DNA of 42,892 bases from Candidatus Fermentibacterota bacterium (GTDB taxonomy: Bacteria; Fermentibacterota; Fermentibacteria; Fermentibacterales; JCC-6). Every line of letters starts with the position of its first letter. The stretch's first letter is position 1. Location: contig JAKPTG010000079.1 of the NCBI GenBank assembly GCA_029571005.1, positions 1 to 42,892 of the forward strand. The letters are read 5' to 3'. The translations under genes and the position numbers were made by a program. Positions 2,087 to 30,163 of this stretch are shown here, in pieces. The notes beneath the pieces are model-generated. The model ran no database searches and was not told where the DNA came from. It was given only the letters and a program-made list of their open reading frames with translations.

Positions 2087-3013
2087 ATGAGGGCGGGAGT
2101 CGTCGGTGTAGGGCATCTGGGCTACCATCACGCCAGGCTTCTCAGAGGGCTGGCCGAAGACGTTTCCGTCTTCGATACCGATGCGGACAGACTCTCCGTG
2201 GTGTGTTCGGAACTGGGTGTGACGCCGACGGGCTCCCTGGAGGAGTTGCTGGACACCGTTGACGCCCTTGTGGTGGCATGCCCCACGGGGGTCCACCACC
2301 GGGTGGCCAGGGAGGCTCTTTCCCGGGAAGTGCCGGTGCTGGTGGAGAAACCCCTGGCCGCCACGGTGGCCGAGGCGGAGGACCTGACCGCCCTTGCCCG
2401 GGAGCGGAACACCGTTCTGGCCGTGGGCCACGTGGAGCGTTTCAACCCCGCCATGACCGCGGCCATGCACCACATCCGCCGCCCCCTCTACATCGAGGCG
2501 GACCGGCTGGCCCCCTTCACCCCGAGATGCACCGACGTCAGCGTGGTGATGGACCTCATGATCCACGACATAGACCTGGTTCTCTCCCTCATCCGTTCCC
2601 CGGTGGCGGGCATCCAGGCTTCCGGGGTGCCTGTGATCACCGACACCGTGGACATCGCCGGAGCCAGAATCGCCTTCGAGAACGGATCCCTGGCGGTTAT
2701 CAATGCCAGCCGGGTGTCCATGGAGCAGGTCAGGAAACTCCGGGTGTTCCAGGAAGGGGGCTACGTGTCGGTGGACTTCGGCGCCAAGACCGCCCACGCC
2801 CTGGAGGTTCGGAACGGTGCCATCGTTCCGGTTCCCGTGACGGTGACGGACCACAACGCCCTGGAGATGGAACTGGCGGACTTCCTCCGGGCCGCCTCCG
2901 GGGAAGGGGAGCCCGCCATCACCGGCGACGACGGCCTCAGGGCCCTCGAAACGGCGGAAATGGTCCTCCGGAAATCGGCCGAGAGCCTGAGGAGGATCCT
3001 GGAGTCCGGATGA
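2087..3013 (+). CDS. Gfo/Idh/MocA family oxidoreductase (possibly a UDP-sugar 3-dehydrogenase)
   Basis: A 308-aa NAD(P)-dependent sugar dehydrogenase family protein. The N-terminal Rossmann fold shows VVGVGHLGYHHARLL (dinucleotide loop), then ACPTGVHH, the family signature VEKPLA, and GHVERFNP before the C-terminal substrate domain. ATG 2087 has GGAGG five bases upstream. The stop overlaps lpxB by ATGA. Position directly before lpxB recalls gnnA of Leptospira and Acidithiobacillus, which oxidises the 3-OH of UDP-GlcNAc for GlcN3N-type lipid A. The partner aminotransferase gnnB is not in this window, so that role is only a hypothesis. Family assignment is firm; substrate is unknown. Confidence 0.85.
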   Translation: MRAGVVGVGHLGYHHARLLRGLAEDVSVFDTDADRLSVVCSELGVTPTGSLEELLDTVDALVVACPTGVHHRVAREALSREVPVLVEKPLAATVAEAEDLTALARERNTVLAVGHVERFNPAMTAAMHHIRRPLYIEADRLAPFTPRCTDVSVVMDLMIHDIDLVLSLIRSPVAGIQASGVPVITDTVDIAGARIAFENGSLAVINASRVSMEQVRKLRVFQEGGYVSVDFGAKTAHALEVRNGAIVPVPVTVTDHNALEMELADFLRAASGEGEPAITGDDGLRALETAEMVLRKSAESLRRILESG

Positions 3014-4089
3014 AAGCCATGATCTGCGCCGGCGAGCCCTCCGGCGACCTCCGGGGAGCGGAGCTTCTGACGGCCCTGAATTCCATCACTCCGGTGGAGG
3101 CCTTCGGCATGGGGGGCGAGGCCCTGGTCAGGGCCGGGATGAAGGTGGCGGTGGACATCTCCGGGCTTTCGGTGATGGGTTTCACCGACGTGCTTCCCGC
3201 CCTGCCCGGGATACTGCGGGCGGAGCGGACCCTGAAGCGGCTGGCCCTGGAGATGGAGCCGCAGGTGCTCATCCTGGTGGACTTTCCCGGTTTCAACATG
3301 AGGCTGGGCTCCTGGGCGGTGAAGCGGGGCATGCGGGTGGTGCAGTACGTGGCGCCCCAGGTGTGGGCGTGGGGGGGGTGGCGGGTCCGAAGGCTCGCCT
3401 CCTCCTGCAGCCTGCTTCTGGTGATTTTCCCCTTCGAGGAGGAGTTTTTCCGCGGGAGGGGCGTAAGGGCCGTTTTCACCGGTCACCCCCTGGCGGACGC
3501 GGTGCCCCGGCCGAGGCCGAGCCCCCGGGGCGAACCGGAGGCGGCCCTGCTTCCGGGCAGCAGGAATCGGGAGGTGAAGGCCCTCCTGCCCGAAATGCTC
3601 GGAGCCTTCAGGATACTCAGGGAAGAGGGGACGGTGCAAAGGGCGTCCATCGCCGTGTCACGCTCCGTTGACCCCCGGCTGTACCCAGCACCGGGCGACG
3701 GAATCGTTCTGGCGGACGGCCCGGGGAGCGCTCTGCAAAACGCCGGGGCGGCCCTGGTCTGTTCCGGCACCGCCACCCTGGAGACCGCCATGCACGGAGT
3801 TCCTCAGGTGGTCTGCTACCGCACCGGAGCCTTCAACTACACGGCTGCGAGACTGATGGTCAGAGGGGTGAGAAGGATAGGGCTCGTGAACCTGGTGGCC
3901 GGTGAGGACGTCGCACCGGAACTCATCCAGGGGGAGGCGGGGAGGGAGAGGATGGCCCGGGAACTCTCCCGGGTGATGGCCGACCCCGGGCGGGAGGCGA
4001 TGACCGGGCTCGTGAGGAGGAGGCTGGGTCCCCCGGGGGGCGCTTTTCGGGCGGCCGGGGAGATAGTCGCCTTCCTGGGGGAGCCGTGA
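3010..4089 (+). CDS. lpxB: Lipid-A-disaccharide synthase
   Basis: GT19 enzyme that joins lipid X (2,3-diacylglucosamine-1-phosphate) to UDP-2,3-diacylglucosamine at the inner face of the cytoplasmic membrane. The 359-aa protein begins MKAMICAGEPSGDLRGAELL, the typical AGExSGD start. Further family blocks are ISGLSVMGFTDVLPALP, LVDFPGFNMRL, VQYVAPQVWAWGGWRV, the VFTGHPLADAV region, LLPGSRNREVKALLP and CSGTATLETAMHGVPQVVCYR near the nucleotide site. It starts with ATG overlapping the dehydrogenase stop (ATGA) and ends by GTGA overlap with the Kdo transferase gene, so translation is probably coupled. Complete and normal in length. Confidence 0.95.
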   Translation: MKAMICAGEPSGDLRGAELLTALNSITPVEAFGMGGEALVRAGMKVAVDISGLSVMGFTDVLPALPGILRAERTLKRLALEMEPQVLILVDFPGFNMRLGSWAVKRGMRVVQYVAPQVWAWGGWRVRRLASSCSLLLVIFPFEEEFFRGRGVRAVFTGHPLADAVPRPRPSPRGEPEAALLPGSRNREVKALLPEMLGAFRILREEGTVQRASIAVSRSVDPRLYPAPGDGIVLADGPGSALQNAGAALVCSGTATLETAMHGVPQVVCYRTGAFNYTAARLMVRGVRRIGLVNLVAGEDVAPELIQGEAGRERMARELSRVMADPGREAMTGLVRRRLGPPGGAFRAAGEIVAFLGEP

Positions 4090-5858
4090 GGCTCCCGACC
4101 TCCGCGGGCAGGGTGCTGGTGACCCTGCTGGGGCGCAGTTGGCGGGTGAAGAGGCTCAGGCCTTCCGCCGGCGGCCCCGGCGGGAGGGTTCTCTACGGCT
4201 TCTGGCACGGGGTCCAGCTCCCACTGCTGTTCACCCATCGCCGCAGGGGCATCACCGTCATGGTGAGCAGGAGCCGCGACGGCGGAATCATCGCCGACCT
4301 GCTGCACTCCATGGGTTTCCATACCGTAAGGGGGAGTTCCTCCCGGGACGGCGCCTCGGCGGCTTCGGCCCTGGTGGACGCCCTGTCCCGGGGCGACGGC
4401 GCCATCACCCCGGACGGCCCGAGGGGCCCCCGGGAGAAGGCCAAGCCGGGAATAGCGGCCATAGCCTCCCTGGCGGGGGTGCCGGTGCAGGCCATGGGGA
4501 TCGCCGCCCGCCCCGCCATCCGGCTGGGCAGCTGGGACCGCTTCCTCATACCCCTGCCGGGAAGCCGGGTGGTGGTGGCGGAGGGGATTCCCATAACCCC
4601 GGGACGCCTGAGCCCGGCGACGGTGGACGCCGAGCTGAGACGCACCGCGGGGGCGGCGGCCCTGGCGGTCGCCCCCGGGCTGTCGCTGCAGGCGATGGCG
4701 GCCGGGATCATTGCTTCGGTGGCATGCCCCGTACTGCTGTTGCGCCCCCGGGAGGAGCGCCGGGAGAGACTCGGCTTCTGCTCGCCGGAGAATCGAAGAC
4801 CGGCGTGGCTTCACGGCTCCTCCCTGGGCGAACTCCGGGGCCTTCTGCCGGTGGCCCGGAGGCTCGGGGAAAGGGGAGTCCCGGTTCACTTCACCTGCTT
4901 CACCCCCTCGGGCAGGGAGTTCATTCGGCGGGAGGGGCTGCATGGGAGCTTCCTTCCCCTGGATTCCCCCCCCTGTGTGAGGCGCTTCCTGTCCAGGCTC
5001 AACCCCCGGCTTCTCGTCCTCGCGGAAACGGAAATCTGGCCCGTCCTTCTCCGGGAAACGGTTCTCAGGGGCATTCCCGCGGGGATGGTAAACGCCCGGC
5101 TCTCCCGCAGGAGCGTTAGGGGGTATTCCATCATAAGAAGGTATGTTGCAGGAATCATCTCATGTTTTGCCAAGGTCCTGTGCAGAACCCCGGAGGACTT
5201 GTCGGCCTTCGAGACTCTGGGGGTGGATCCGCGGATTCTCACCGTGGCCGGAGACGGGAAGGCCCTGGTGCGCCCCGGGGCTCCCGACCCCTCCTGGAGG
5301 GAAATGCTGGTTCCGGGGCTGAGGTACGTCGTGGCCGGTTCCACCAGGGAAAAGGAGGAGGAGTTCGTCCTGAAAGCCGCCAGGCGGGCCGGGATGGGGG
5401 TCATTCTGGCGCCGAGGCACCGGGAGAGAATCCCCGGGGTGCTCGAGACCGGGGATCGGCTGGGCTGGCGGGCGGCGCTCTGGAGCGGCGGCCCCGGGCC
5501 GTCGGAGTGCATCGTGATAGATGTTCACGGGGTGCTGCCCCGGGTATATCCCCTGGGCGATGCGGCCTTCCTGGGGGGTACCGTGGCGCCGATGGGCGGC
5601 CACAACATCCTGGAGCCCCTGGCCGGCGGATTGCCGGTGCTGGTCGGTCCGCACCACGGAAACCACGCATCGGTCGTGCGGGAAGGGGTGGCCGCCGGGG
5701 TGGTGGCGGTGGTTGAGGAACCCGGGGACGCCGCCGCCGTACTGTTGAAGTGGTCCGGAACCGGGGGGATGGGAGAGACCGCCAGGCGTCTTGCCCGGCG
5801 GGGGGAGGAGCTGTTCGACTCACGGCTCTCCGAACTGTTGGAGGAACTTCTGGTATGA
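4086..5858 (+). CDS. waaA: DUF374 acyltransferase-like / Kdo transferase (WaaA) fusion
   Basis: A 590-aa two-domain protein. Residues about 35-150 match DUF374, a family related to lysophospholipid/LpxL-type acyltransferases (YGFWHGVQLPLLF, VSRSRDGGIIA, RGSSSRDGASA, AITPDGPRGPREKAKPG). Residues about 198-590 are a whole 3-deoxy-D-manno-octulosonic acid transferase: N-terminal hydrophobic anchor, HGSSLGE with the catalytic-type Glu at 249, LVLAETEIWPVLLRE, NARLSRRS, VAGSTREKEEE, ILAPRHRERIPGV and FLGGTVAPMGGHNILEPLA. WaaA adds Kdo from CMP-Kdo to the lipid A precursor. The usual separate DUF374 gene is here fused in frame without a stop. The gene starts with GTG overlapping the lpxB stop and overlaps lpxK by ATGA. 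The WaaA assignment is firm; the acyltransferase activity is inferred. Confidence 0.9.
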   Translation: MRLPTSAGRVLVTLLGRSWRVKRLRPSAGGPGGRVLYGFWHGVQLPLLFTHRRRGITVMVSRSRDGGIIADLLHSMGFHTVRGSSSRDGASAASALVDALSRGDGAITPDGPRGPREKAKPGIAAIASLAGVPVQAMGIAARPAIRLGSWDRFLIPLPGSRVVVAEGIPITPGRLSPATVDAELRRTAGAAALAVAPGLSLQAMAAGIIASVACPVLLLRPREERRERLGFCSPENRRPAWLHGSSLGELRGLLPVARRLGERGVPVHFTCFTPSGREFIRREGLHGSFLPLDSPPCVRRFLSRLNPRLLVLAETEIWPVLLRETVLRGIPAGMVNARLSRRSVRGYSIIRRYVAGIISCFAKVLCRTPEDLSAFETLGVDPRILTVAGDGKALVRPGAPDPSWREMLVPGLRYVVAGSTREKEEEFVLKAARRAGMGVILAPRHRERIPGVLETGDRLGWRAALWSGGPGPSECIVIDVHGVLPRVYPLGDAAFLGGTVAPMGGHNILEPLAGGLPVLVGPHHGNHASVVREGVAAGVVAVVEEPGDAAAVLLKWSGTGGMGETARRLARRGEELFDSRLSELLEELLV

Positions 5859-18675: not shown

Positions 18676-20307
18676 ATGAACCCCGCGGAAGAACTGAATG
18701 ACCGCTCCCTGGGAACCCCCGCCCAGGAAGGGCGCAGCGTGGCCAGAGCCACGGGCCTTCTGGGGCTTCTCACCGTGGCCAGCAGGCTGCTGGGGCTACT
18801 CCGGGACATGGCCCAGGCGGCCTTCCTGGGCACCGGCATGGCGGCGGACGCCTTCACTCTGGCCTTCATAATACCCAACATCCTCAGAAGGCTCTTTGGA
18901 GAGTCAACCGTGGCCGCGGCCCTGGTGCCCTCCTACACCGAGACCCTGGTGAAGGACGGCCGCGGAGCCGCCCGAAGGCTGGCCGCCGGAACCCTGACCT
19001 TCACCTGGTTCACCCTGACGGTAATCACCGCCCTGGGCATCCTCCTGGCTCCGCAACTGGTGAGGGTCTTCGCCCCGGGCTTCGCCGGGGTCCCGGGGAA
19101 GATGGAGCTGGCTTCCGGGCTCCTGAGGCTCCTGTTCCCCTACATCCTCTTCGTTGGCACGGCGGCTGTATGCATGGGCATACTCAACAGCCACCGGCAC
19201 TTCGCAGCCCCCGCCGTGGCTCCGGTGTTCTTCAACATCTCGGCCCTGGCGGGCCTGTTCCTCCTGGCCCGGGTCTGGCGGTCCGACGCCCCGGTCTGGG
19301 GGTTCTCGGTGGGCATCCTTCTGGGCGGCGTCCTGCAACTGGCGGTGCAGCTGCCCTTCCTCCGGTCCAGGGGAATCTCCCTGAAACCCGTCTTCGACTT
19401 CCGGGACCCGCTGTTCCGGAGCGTCCTGAAACTGGCGCTCCCGGCCCTTGTCGGCCTGCTGGCGGCGGAGGTGAACATCATGGTGGACCAGCTCCTGGCC
19501 TCGCTCCTGGAGCCGGGGAGCGTGGCGGCCCTGGCCTACGGCTAGAGGGTGACCCAGGTACCCCAGGGCATCTTTGCCGTGGCCCTGGCCACCGCCCTCC
19601 TTCCCACCCTCAGCCGCCAGACCGCCATGGGCAGGCTGGAGGACGCGGGAAAGACCCTGGGGTACTCCACCGTGATTCTCTTCGGGGTGATGATACCCGC
19701 CTCGATGTTCATGATGGTCATGGCCCGGCCCGTAATCACCCTGGTGTTCGCCCGGGGGGCCTTCGGGGAGGGGTCCGTGGAGATGACCGCCGCGGCCCTC
19801 CGGTATTACTCCCTTGGGATGGTGTTCTTTTCCGCGGTCAGGATCACCGCCCCGGTGTTCTACTCCCTGAAGGACACCCGCACCCCGGTGAAGGCGTCGG
19901 TGCTGTGCATGGGGCTGAACATAATTCTGAACATCCTCTTCACCTGGTTCTTCCTGAAAACCCGCCTGGAGAAACCCCTGGCGGGGCTTTCCCTGGCGAG
20001 CAGCGCCGCCGGAGCGGTGAACTTCATGCTGCTCCGCCGCCGGCTTCGGGGACGCATCGGCCCCACCGCGGCGCCGGCCCGGGTGTGGTTCGCCCTGGCC
20101 GCCGGTTCCATCGCCGCGGCCCTGGCCCTGGCCCTTCTGAGAGGCCCCACGACGGAGGCGGCGGCCCGGGGGGTATGGCACGGGGCCGGAATGCTGGCCC
20201 TGAGCGCCGCGACGGTTTTCGGGCTCTCCCTGGGAGTGTTCGTCCTGTTCGGGGGGGCCAGGGTGAAGGATTCACTGGCGGGGATGGTCCGGCGTGGCCG
20301 ACGATAG
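18676..20307 (+). CDS. murJ: Lipid II flippase MurJ, interrupted by an in-frame TAG
   Basis: MATE/MVF-family membrane protein with about 14 helices that moves lipid II across the cytoplasmic membrane for peptidoglycan synthesis. The frame from ATG 18676 to TAG 20305-20307 encodes a normal 543-residue MurJ, but codon 290 (19543-19545) is TAG. Before it are RLLGLLRDMAQAAFLGTGMA, ADAFTLAFIIPNILRRLFGE and the 'AEVNIMVDQLLAS' helix. After it the same frame goes on with RVTQVPQGIFAVALATALLP, which is the usual continuation of YAxRLxQLPxG. No base is gained or lost. The stop replaces the residue before a conserved Arg. A restart at GTG 19549 is possible but would give two half-proteins. The gene overlaps uvrC by 14 bases. 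Either a sequence error, a real nonsense mutation or read-through. Confidence 0.85.
19543..19545 (+). other. In-frame TAG within murJ
   Basis: The local reading is GCC TAC GGC TAG AGG GTG ACC CAG. Coding continues in the same frame on both sides. Tyr (TAC), Trp, Gln, Glu, Lys, Ser or Leu codons are one substitution away. Genuine TAG stops end four other frames or genes in the window (17341, 18599, 20305, 26901), so TAG is used as a stop here. Confidence 0.9.
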
Positions 20308-26903: not shown

Positions 26904-28473
26904 ATTCGCCCTCATGCTGCTGGTTGCCGGGTGCGCCAAGGTGGTGCCCCCCGGGGGAGGCCCCGAGGACCGGGAGCCGCCCTTCCTTCTGGAGTCAAGC
27001 CCCGGGCCCGGGATCGTGGAGGAACTCCCGACCGGGCTGGTGCTGCTCTTCAGCGAGCGGCTGGGGCCCGGAAACCCGGAACCCCTGTTGTTCCCGGATC
27101 CGGGGCACAAAACCCGATTCCGGGGCGACAGGATTGAAGTGACCCTCGACTCGCCCCCTGACGGCCCCGTCCTCGCGCTGTTGGTGCCGCCGGGGCTCGC
27201 CGACACCCGGGGCAACCGCTCCCGCTGCCCCCTGCAACTGGCATGGACCACCGCGGACACAGTCTCCCTGGCGTCCCTGTCCTTCAGTGCCACGACAAAG
27301 GGAGGGGGAATGACGGCTCCTTCGTCCATCGTGAGGCTCTACATGCTTCCGGACACCGCCGAGCCGGTACGGACCGCCTTCCCGGACACCGCGGGGTTCG
27401 GGGTGTTTCCCTGGCTCGAACCCGGCGGGTACCGGGTCTCCGCCTTCGAGGACCGGGACGGAAGCCTGGTCTGGGAGAGTCAGACGGAGCCGGGAACGGA
27501 AGTCGAGATAACACTGGAGGCCGGGGCCCGGGAGAGCCTGGATCTGGTGTTCACCGTGGTGGACACCGTGGGTCCGGTGCTTCTGGAGGCCGGGGCTCCG
27601 GACGGGTACCATGTTCTGCTCCAGTGGAACGAGGAACTGCCCCGGACTCCGCCCCCGGCGGACTGCTTCAGCCTGAGGGCTCCGGACGGAAGCGGGCCTG
27701 AGATACTCGGAACCTCCATGGCGCCCGGCAGGAGTACGAACATGCTGCTGCTGCACACCCGGCTCCTGCCGGACACGTCGCTGACGGTGTACGCCGCAGG
27801 GGTGAAGGATGTCTCCGGAAATCCCTCCTCCCCCGACAGCCTCACCTTCTGGGCCTGCGACAGCCTGCCGGAGGAGGCCTTCGACGTGGTTTCGGCGTTC
27901 CCCGGGGACGGCCAGAGCGACGTGAATCCGGCGGGGCCGTTCATGCTGACGCTGAACGCGTGGGTTTCCCTGGACAGTCTGGCGGACAGGTACTCCGTCA
28001 CCAGGGTTTCCGACGGCGTTGCCGTCGAGGGGACCCTGGAGCGGATCGACGCCCTGTCCTTCGCCTTCACGCCGGTTCTCCACCTCCAGGGCCATGTGCA
28101 ACACAGGATAGACCTTGCGCCCGGGCTCACCTGCCTCTGGGGCGATAGTCTCAAGGCCCGGACATGGGTGTTCGCCGCCGCCTGGAGCACCCTGCCCGGG
28201 TCGGTCTCCGGCACCGTCTCCGGAGCCGGCGGCCCGGTCACCCTGGTGCTGGCCCCGGCGGGGGGAACGGGGGAGAAGATCACCGCCGAGACGTCCCCCG
28301 GAACCTACACCATGGAGGGAGTGCCGGGAGGGCGGTACACCCTGTCGGCCTTCCGGGACCGGATTGGAAACGGGCTCTGGGACCCCGGGGAACCCTACGG
28401 GGCGTGGCCGGGGATACTCGAGGTGCGGCCGGGGCTTGAAACCGGGGGGGCCGACATTGCCGTTCTTCCCTGA
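26890..28473 (+). CDS. Lipoprotein with bacterial Ig-like (Big_5) domains
   Basis: A 527-aa lipoprotein: MRSRRFALMLLVAGC gives lipidation at Cys15, followed by PPGGGPEDREPPFLLESSPG. This start is the hallmark of a Bacteroidetes/FCB family of surface lipoproteins whose first domain is an SbsA-type Ig-like fold (residues about 30-120). Two further beta-rich domains follow (about 235-320 and 330-430), and a C-terminal carboxypeptidase-regulatory-like domain (GTYTMEGVPGGRYTLSAFRD, then NGLWDPGEPYG). Role is probably structural or in adhesion at the outer membrane; no enzyme motif is seen. ATG overlaps the end of the ParB-like gene by 14 bases, and the 3' end overlaps the next gene by 17. Confidence 0.8.
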   Translation: MRSRRFALMLLVAGCAKVVPPGGGPEDREPPFLLESSPGPGIVEELPTGLVLLFSERLGPGNPEPLLFPDPGHKTRFRGDRIEVTLDSPPDGPVLALLVPPGLADTRGNRSRCPLQLAWTTADTVSLASLSFSATTKGGGMTAPSSIVRLYMLPDTAEPVRTAFPDTAGFGVFPWLEPGGYRVSAFEDRDGSLVWESQTEPGTEVEITLEAGARESLDLVFTVVDTVGPVLLEAGAPDGYHVLLQWNEELPRTPPPADCFSLRAPDGSGPEILGTSMAPGRSTNMLLLHTRLLPDTSLTVYAAGVKDVSGNPSSPDSLTFWACDSLPEEAFDVVSAFPGDGQSDVNPAGPFMLTLNAWVSLDSLADRYSVTRVSDGVAVEGTLERIDALSFAFTPVLHLQGHVQHRIDLAPGLTCLWGDSLKARTWVFAAAWSTLPGSVSGTVSGAGGPVTLVLAPAGGTGEKITAETSPGTYTMEGVPGGRYTLSAFRDRIGNGLWDPGEPYGAWPGILEVRPGLETGGADIAVLP

Positions 28474-29236
28474 GGAGAGCTTTCAAAGGGAGTTGTGCAC
28501 CGGATGCGGTGTCTGCTCCCGGGTCTGCCCGGCGATGGCGGTGATGAGGGATTCCGACGGTGTCGTCACCGGTTTCCGGAATTCGTGCATCCGGTGCGGC
28601 CACTGCGGGGCGTACTGCCCCTCCGACGCGTTCCGTCTGCCGCCGGCGACCGGCTCCGGCGTGGACCCCGAGGCCCTCATGTCTCTCTTCCGGGCCCGGC
28701 GGAGTACCAGAATCTTTCTCCCTGACGACATCGAGCCGGAGTGTTTGAGAAGGCTTCTTGCCCCTACGGGCCTTGCACCCACCGGAACCAACGCCGGGGG
28801 CATCACGGTCGTTGCCGTCAGAGGGGTGGACACCATCGGAACCCTGGTGGCGGCCCCCCTGAGAAGGCTCCTGAAACTCTTCTTCCCCCTGGCGGCCCTT
28901 GCCGGGTACGGGGGGCAGGCCAGGGAGTTCCTGGACGGGGAGGACCCGATCACCCGGGGCGCCCCATGCCTGCTCCTGTTCTTCGTCCCCCGGAGCAACC
29001 CCACCGGGGCCGCCGACGGAGTGATCGCCGCCGCCATGGTCACCCTTCAGGCGGAGGCCATGGGGCTGGGAACCCTCTGGAACGGAGTGCTGCAGGCGCT
29101 GTTCCCGCTGCTTCCCGGGCTCCGGAGGCACAGGCCCCGGGGAACCCGGCTCAGGGCGGTGCTGTGCGTGGGAAAGAAGGGGTTGGAACCCCTGCACCGG
29201 ATTCCGGACAGGGACTGGAAAGTGCTGATCCCCTGA
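28457..29236 (+). CDS. Ferredoxin-nitroreductase fusion protein
   Basis: A 259-aa protein with two 4Fe-4S motifs at the N-terminus (Cys14/17/20/24 in CTGCGVCSRVCP and Cys44/47/50/54 in CIRCGHCGAYCP), then an FMN nitroreductase-fold domain (RARRSTRIFLPDDIEPECLR, TGLAPTGTNAG, AMVTLQAEAMGLGTLWNGVL). Such fusions are flavoproteins fed by internal clusters; natural substrates are mostly unknown. TTG 28457 is the only start that keeps both clusters with a few residues before them; it overlaps the lipoprotein gene by 17 bases. The first cluster could not be made from any later start. Likely cytoplasmic and suited to anaerobic life. Confidence 0.82.
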   Translation: MPFFPEESFQRELCTGCGVCSRVCPAMAVMRDSDGVVTGFRNSCIRCGHCGAYCPSDAFRLPPATGSGVDPEALMSLFRARRSTRIFLPDDIEPECLRRLLAPTGLAPTGTNAGGITVVAVRGVDTIGTLVAAPLRRLLKLFFPLAALAGYGGQAREFLDGEDPITRGAPCLLLFFVPRSNPTGAADGVIAAAMVTLQAEAMGLGTLWNGVLQALFPLLPGLRRHRPRGTRLRAVLCVGKKGLEPLHRIPDRDWKVLIP

Positions 29237-29269
29237 AAGATATCGGGGGCGGCGCGGTCGGCGGAGCCG

Positions 29270-30163
29270 TCAGGGCCGCCAGGGAAGGGGGCTTCTGATA
29301 CCGGTTCGGCCGGTGCCGGCAACCATGAGGTTGCTCCATTGCAGGAGATGCCCGACGGAGTAGAGGCTCATATCTATCCTGCCGATATGGAACCGTTCCG
29401 GGCCCCCGTCGAGGACCCGGGAGAAGCCCGTCACCTTGCCGTCCACCACGAAGGCGCTGGTCACCGAGGGTCTGCGGCGCCAGGTGAGGCCCGCCATGAA
29501 CCCCCTGAAGGCCCCGCCCCGGGGCGGCTGCCCGCCGGGGTAGGCAAGGGCCCGGACCTCTCCCGTCCTCATTCCCAGGTACTTCGCGAAACGGTCCAGG
29601 GCGCCGTTGATCTGGCGGCGCCACCCGTCCTCGGAGATGAGCTGGAACTGGGCGTGGCTCAGGGAGTGGTTCCCCACTTCATGCCCCAGATCGAGGATCA
29701 GGTTCAGCTTTTCGCCGGTGTCCTCCCCGAAGGGGGTTTTGTCCCAGCTCACGAAGAAGGTTACGCCTCCGCCGAAGTCGGGGTGCTCATCGAGGAACCC
29801 CTCGACCACCCCCAGGGCGCACAGGGGGTCCAGTTCCCCGGTTCCCGGCAGAAAGCGGCAGTGGTCCTCCCAGCCGTCGTCGAAGGTTATCATCACCGGC
29901 CGCCTGTCCCTGGGGACCTGCATCAGGCGGTTTTCCAGGTCACGGGGGGTCACGAGGTAGAACCCGTTCTCGTAAAGGGCCTCGAGGTCGCCCCTCAGCC
30001 GGTAAGGGGAGACCCCGTAGGGTACGGCGGAGCTTCCCACATGATGGTAGCACAGCACCGGAATACCGCTGGGATGGTCCACGGGAACCGGTTCCCGGTA
30101 CTCCAGCGGGGGCGCCGGGAACACCCCCGCCGAGACCAGGGCCGCGGCGAACAGCCCGGTCAC
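29270..30163 (-). CDS. Polysaccharide deacetylase family protein (CE4)
   Basis: A 297-aa NodB-fold protein. It starts at GTG 30163, overlapping the upstream lipoprotein stop (GTGA), with a hydrophobic N-terminus (MTGLFAAALVSAGVFPAPP) that fits a signal peptide. Metal and catalytic motifs are IPVLCYHHVG, VMITFDDGWEDH (catalytic base and metal Asp pair), GHEVGNHSLSH (the two metal His) and ALAYPGG. Such enzymes remove acetyl or formyl groups from N-acetylglucosamine in peptidoglycan or surface polysaccharide outside the cytoplasm. Substrate unknown. The C-terminal part, with TSAFVVDGKVTGFSRV, is typical of longer family members. Confidence 0.88.
   Translation of the reverse strand: MTGLFAAALVSAGVFPAPPLEYREPVPVDHPSGIPVLCYHHVGSSAVPYGVSPYRLRGDLEALYENGFYLVTPRDLENRLMQVPRDRRPVMITFDDGWEDHCRFLPGTGELDPLCALGVVEGFLDEHPDFGGGVTFFVSWDKTPFGEDTGEKLNLILDLGHEVGNHSLSHAQFQLISEDGWRRQINGALDRFAKYLGMRTGEVRALAYPGGQPPRGGAFRGFMAGLTWRRRPSVTSAFVVDGKVTGFSRVLDGGPERFHIGRIDMSLYSVGHLLQWSNLMVAGTGRTGIRSPLPWRP

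Follow-up and report, generated by a model that had tools for sequence, protein, structure and literature searches.

MurJ/MviN proteins, the lipid II flippase family, are described by the profiles TIGR01695 and PF03023 and by solved structures from E. coli (6CC4) and T. africanus (5T77). Arg255 of the T. africanus protein, the equivalent of E. coli Arg270, is essential (PMC6465408). Nevertheless, B. subtilis without MurJ homologues is viable (PMC12096821), and an O-antigen flippase is reported to substitute for MurJ in E. coli (PMC4990322). Since some bacteria, such as B. subtilis, can export lipid II without MurJ, a real loss of the protein is not to be dismissed on essentiality alone. Here we describe a murJ gene that matches this family at full length on both sides of an internal stop, and differs from it in a single in-frame TAG, which directly precedes the Arg270 equivalent. 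What is the nature of this stop? Judged from the sequence, our analysis favours a commonplace error in one letter, or else a recent mutation, over a new reading of the genetic code.

The window, by which we mean the whole stretch of DNA analysed (42,892 nucleotides), is contig C17 of a draft genome of 1.87 Mb that comprises 125 contigs and has a completeness of 92.6%. The genome represents a genus within Fermentibacteraceae, the family to which its relatives (Candidatus Sabulitectum and others) are assigned by their matches in the public genome collection; all the close matches there are entered as metagenome-assembled. Upstream of murJ, the window encodes a 603 aa LpxB-like protein (2278-4089) in which about 245 residues precede the LpxB domain, followed by a single open frame (4086-5858) that contains both Glycos_transf_N, a Kdo transferase domain, and DUF374, and probably joins two proteins of the lipid A pathway in one fusion.

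The murJ frame and its internal TAG

The sequence-only reading of this DNA had proposed a single in-frame TAG in an otherwise intact murJ, situated just before a functionally needed arginine, and both points were borne out. Codon 290 is the sole internal stop in the gene, the frame is unbroken on either side of it (19537-19551 reads TAC GGC TAG AGG GTG), and the PF03023 profile yields one continuous in-frame match, annotated with '1 TAG' within. In TIGR01695 the two halves fit adjacent profile positions, 1-265 and 269-495, and murJ shares 75% identity with its uninterrupted counterpart in the sister species. When aligned to the solved MurJ structures, the stop falls on E. coli Asp269 and the following codon (R291) on Arg270. 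The equivalents of Ser17, Arg18, Arg24, Asp25, Asp39, Arg52 and Arg270 are all present in the read-through protein, so that the essential charged residues Arg18, Arg24, Asp39, Arg52 and Arg270 are kept, the last of them encoded after the stop. The coordinates are collected in Table 1.

Table 1. Features of the murJ locus, in positions of the window
Feature	Position	Strand	Basis
murJ (lipid II flippase family), 543 codons including one in-frame TAG	18676..20307	+	PF03023, 369 bits across the stop
In-frame TAG, codon 290; sense codon in 29/29 aligned relatives	19543..19545	+	sequence, alignment
AGG, Arg291, equivalent of E. coli Arg270 / T. africanus Arg255	19546..19548	+	alignment, PMC6465408
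Downstream open frame from GTG; separate translation would start past Arg291	19549..20307	+	ORF
Normal TAG terminator of murJ, overlaps uvrC start (20294)	20305..20307	+	sequence

Codon 290 in relatives and the age of the stop

Alignment of the relatives' genes at codon 290, a check already named in the sequence-only reading, placed a stop in none of the 29. Some relatives' murJ matches were marked as having a TGA inside, which suggested stops at a common site; those that were aligned proved to be ordinary terminators closing the match. Viral contigs, scanned for the surrounding sequence, gave no match. In the sister species, the sole other species of the genus, codon 290 is CAA (Gln); in the next genus the residue is Leu, and in other genera it is Asn or Ser. 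With such variability at this position, a wide range of residues would be acceptable there. A single transition separates TAG from CAG, and glutamine is encoded in the window's murJ by seven CAG and two CAA codons. Since the closest relative has Gln, a change from CAG to TAG would be the simplest one at this codon. The earlier suggestion of a base error from TAC to TAG thus stands in part: a base error is the best supported account, but the lost residue is not Tyr, as the relatives have Gln, Leu, Asn or Ser, so the change is better read as C-to-T from a glutamine codon.

The age of the stop was assessed from the constraint on either side of it. In NG86 comparisons with the sister species, codons 20-289 gave a dN of 0.130 and a dS of 1.085 (dN/dS about 0.12), and codons 291-430 a dN of 0.144 and a dS of 1.042 (dN/dS about 0.14); the C-terminal tail of MurJ evolves faster. 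Among columns that are invariant in the relatives, 0 of 95 were changed upstream of the stop and 1 of 47 downstream. When amino-acid changes were assigned to lineages, the window's own branch and that of the sister carried 31 and 11 changes in the C-terminal half, and 17 and 12 in the N-terminal half (Fisher p = 0.21), a non-significant excess that would fit mild relaxation. Further lesions and relaxed selection were looked for as signs of decay in the downstream half, and none was found across the 543 codons. The similar dN/dS of the two halves and the lack of a further lesion speak against an old pseudogene. Since both halves are equally constrained, the stop is either recent or an artefact.

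How often is murJ found broken in comparable drafts? Frameshifts interrupt it in two other genomes of the family, at about residue 52 of the query in one (G028, C6:51500-54500) and at about residue 376 in the other (G030, C136:4000-7000), so that indels by themselves break the murJ frame in roughly 2 of the 35 drafts of the family. With this background, no special mechanism has to be invoked for a single substitution in a third. We regard a single wrong consensus base, C-to-T, as the probable source of the TAG. The gene would then be a typical lipid II flippase gene of full length in a Fermentibacteraceae draft genome, in which an ancestral CAG (Gln) would have been turned into TAG by a single C-to-T substitution, arising either as a base error or as a minority or damaged allele taken up during assembly. 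In that case, which we hold to be the most likely one, the fault lies in the consensus, while the cells of the living population would have a sense codon at this site and produce MurJ normally.

A recent nonsense mutation and a second MurJ-family protein

It is possible, though we consider it less likely, that the strain sampled has a real nonsense mutation of recent origin, CAG to TAG. It would then make little or no full-length MurJ, and its viability would be sustained by the MurJ-like paralogue, another flippase or a MOP-independent route for lipid II. The precedents of B. subtilis and, as reported, of E. coli speak for this, as do the presence of a second MurJ-family protein and the mild, non-significant excess of changes in the C-terminal half. 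Moreover, the genome holds other broken genes (an ABC gene on C104 and a HATPase on C25, both described below), so real nonsense mutations are possible in it. On the other side stands the downstream half of murJ, which is free of decay.

The sequence-only reading had raised the possibility of a second flippase, for example Amj. Amj was not found in the genome; a second MurJ-family protein is indeed encoded, on contig C88, yet it is not an obvious replacement. Its frame is intact, but it lacks the equivalents of Arg18 and Asp25, and its gene adjoins those of a Wzz-like protein and a glycosyltransferase (names read from sequence), in a locus of the exopolysaccharide type. The pair formed by the main murJ and this paralogue is common to nearly all family relatives, which argues against the one standing in for the other. 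Because nearly all members of the family carry the pair, the paralogue probably moves polysaccharides and does not serve as a spare MurJ, as far as its sequence and surroundings suggest.

TAG usage and the translation machinery

Could the stop instead be translated? If read-through were functional, a real UAG would be decoded by one of the ordinary tRNAs for Gln or Tyr, or by a suppressor tRNA that escaped detection, and some full-length MurJ would result. In favour of this, selection acts on an intact frame on both sides of the stop, several residues are tolerated at the site, and tRNA-Gln (CTG, TTG) and tRNA-Tyr (GTA) are present in the genome. The local RNA fold around the TAG is also somewhat more stable than that of shuffled sequences (z = -2.1); however, the corresponding stretch of the sister, with its Gln codon, is also somewhat more stable than its shuffles (z = -1.65), and the stop itself occurs in no relative. 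The searches for pylS and for a tRNA with a CTA anticodon, which had been put forward as checks, found neither. A CTA (CUA) anticodon was seen in 0 of 38 tRNA genes, which speaks against a suppressor tRNA, with the reservation that a few expected tRNAs are missing and an assembly gap could hide one. For PylS (TIGR02367) the best match reached 18.8 bits against a cut-off of 178, a value exceeded in 1 of 14 control genomes, so pyrrolysine coding was not supported at that cut-off. Both RF1 and RF2 are intact and score above their curated cut-offs, which gives no support to a loss or change of RF1. Read-through, one of the options left by the sequence-only reading, thus gained no positive support, and we consider it improbable.

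A reference-free codon-usage scan was applied to the window and 20 further stretches of the genome, about 440 kb in all with 1247 candidates, and the murJ TAG ranked first of these for coding signal that continues in frame across a stop. The best 15 candidates were read, and no second stop inside a gene was found among them; the other strong ones were same-frame gene boundaries or antisense shadow frames. Apparent in-frame stops in other genes of the window lay upstream of real starts, in a tRNA-Leu gene or in antisense frames. Likewise, about 80 matches to ABC, radical SAM and HATPase families genome-wide held no TAG interruption, so that the proposed search for further in-frame TAGs in either sample came back empty.

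Two of these family matches carry breaks of other kinds. The ABC transporter gene on C104 (about 27582-29275) lies in two overlapping frames of 431 aa and 132 aa, apparently split by one frameshift, and seems to use AT-richer codons than other parts of the genome. The HATPase domain remnant (C25:28180-28368) contains two TGA and one TAA, and is probably a pseudogene.

The more demanding proposal is that the TAG is real and fixed and that MurJ synthesis relies on a read-through that is either regulated or leaky; the export of lipid II would then hinge on suppression of a stop placed immediately before the essential substrate-binding arginine. We regard this as very improbable. A real and fixed stop would mean either that a Gram-negative-type bacterium lives although its main flippase for lipid II is missing, or that read-through maintains an essential gene.

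A split MurJ, in which an N-terminal half ending at 19542 and a C-terminal half restarting at the GTG three bases past the stop would associate into a working flippase, is exceedingly unlikely, since the essential Arg291 codon lies between the stop and the GTG and would be in neither half, and no relative is split at codon 290. Least credible of all is that TAG has been reassigned to Gln, Sec or Pyl, whether throughout the genome or in part: the TAG does stand where the sister has Gln, but the codon-usage scan contradicts the idea, RF1 is intact, a CUA tRNA and PylS were not found, and the tRNA-Sec has the anticodon TCA. Furthermore, TAG ends 4 of 34 genes in the window, as well as genes outside it, such as that of ribosomal protein L21 before folD (named from sequence). 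The sequence-only argument that TAG is a normal stop here, against a genome-wide recoding, is thereby upheld. TGA is the commonest stop (29 of 34 window genes); the tRNA-Sec gene lies within C18:41000-41450, and the organism probably uses selenocysteine at TGA.

The locus is mainly a caution. Recoding should not be deduced from a lone in-frame stop when the genome is a draft, even if the gene is essential, and most of the question can be settled without reads, from the tRNAs, the release factors, the codons of sister genomes and the genome-wide frequency of such stops. Among known systems, UAG recoding and read-through (pyrrolysine, amber suppression, TAG=Gln codes) resemble this locus in having an in-frame TAG inside a conserved gene; here, in contrast, none of the machinery and no second example were found, TAG is a normal stop and RF1 is intact. 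With consensus errors and strain-level nonsense alleles in drafts or MAGs, the murJ stop shares its form, a single isolated change, one transition from the codon of the relatives, without a trace of decay, and the likeness extends to the frameshifted murJ in two other related drafts.
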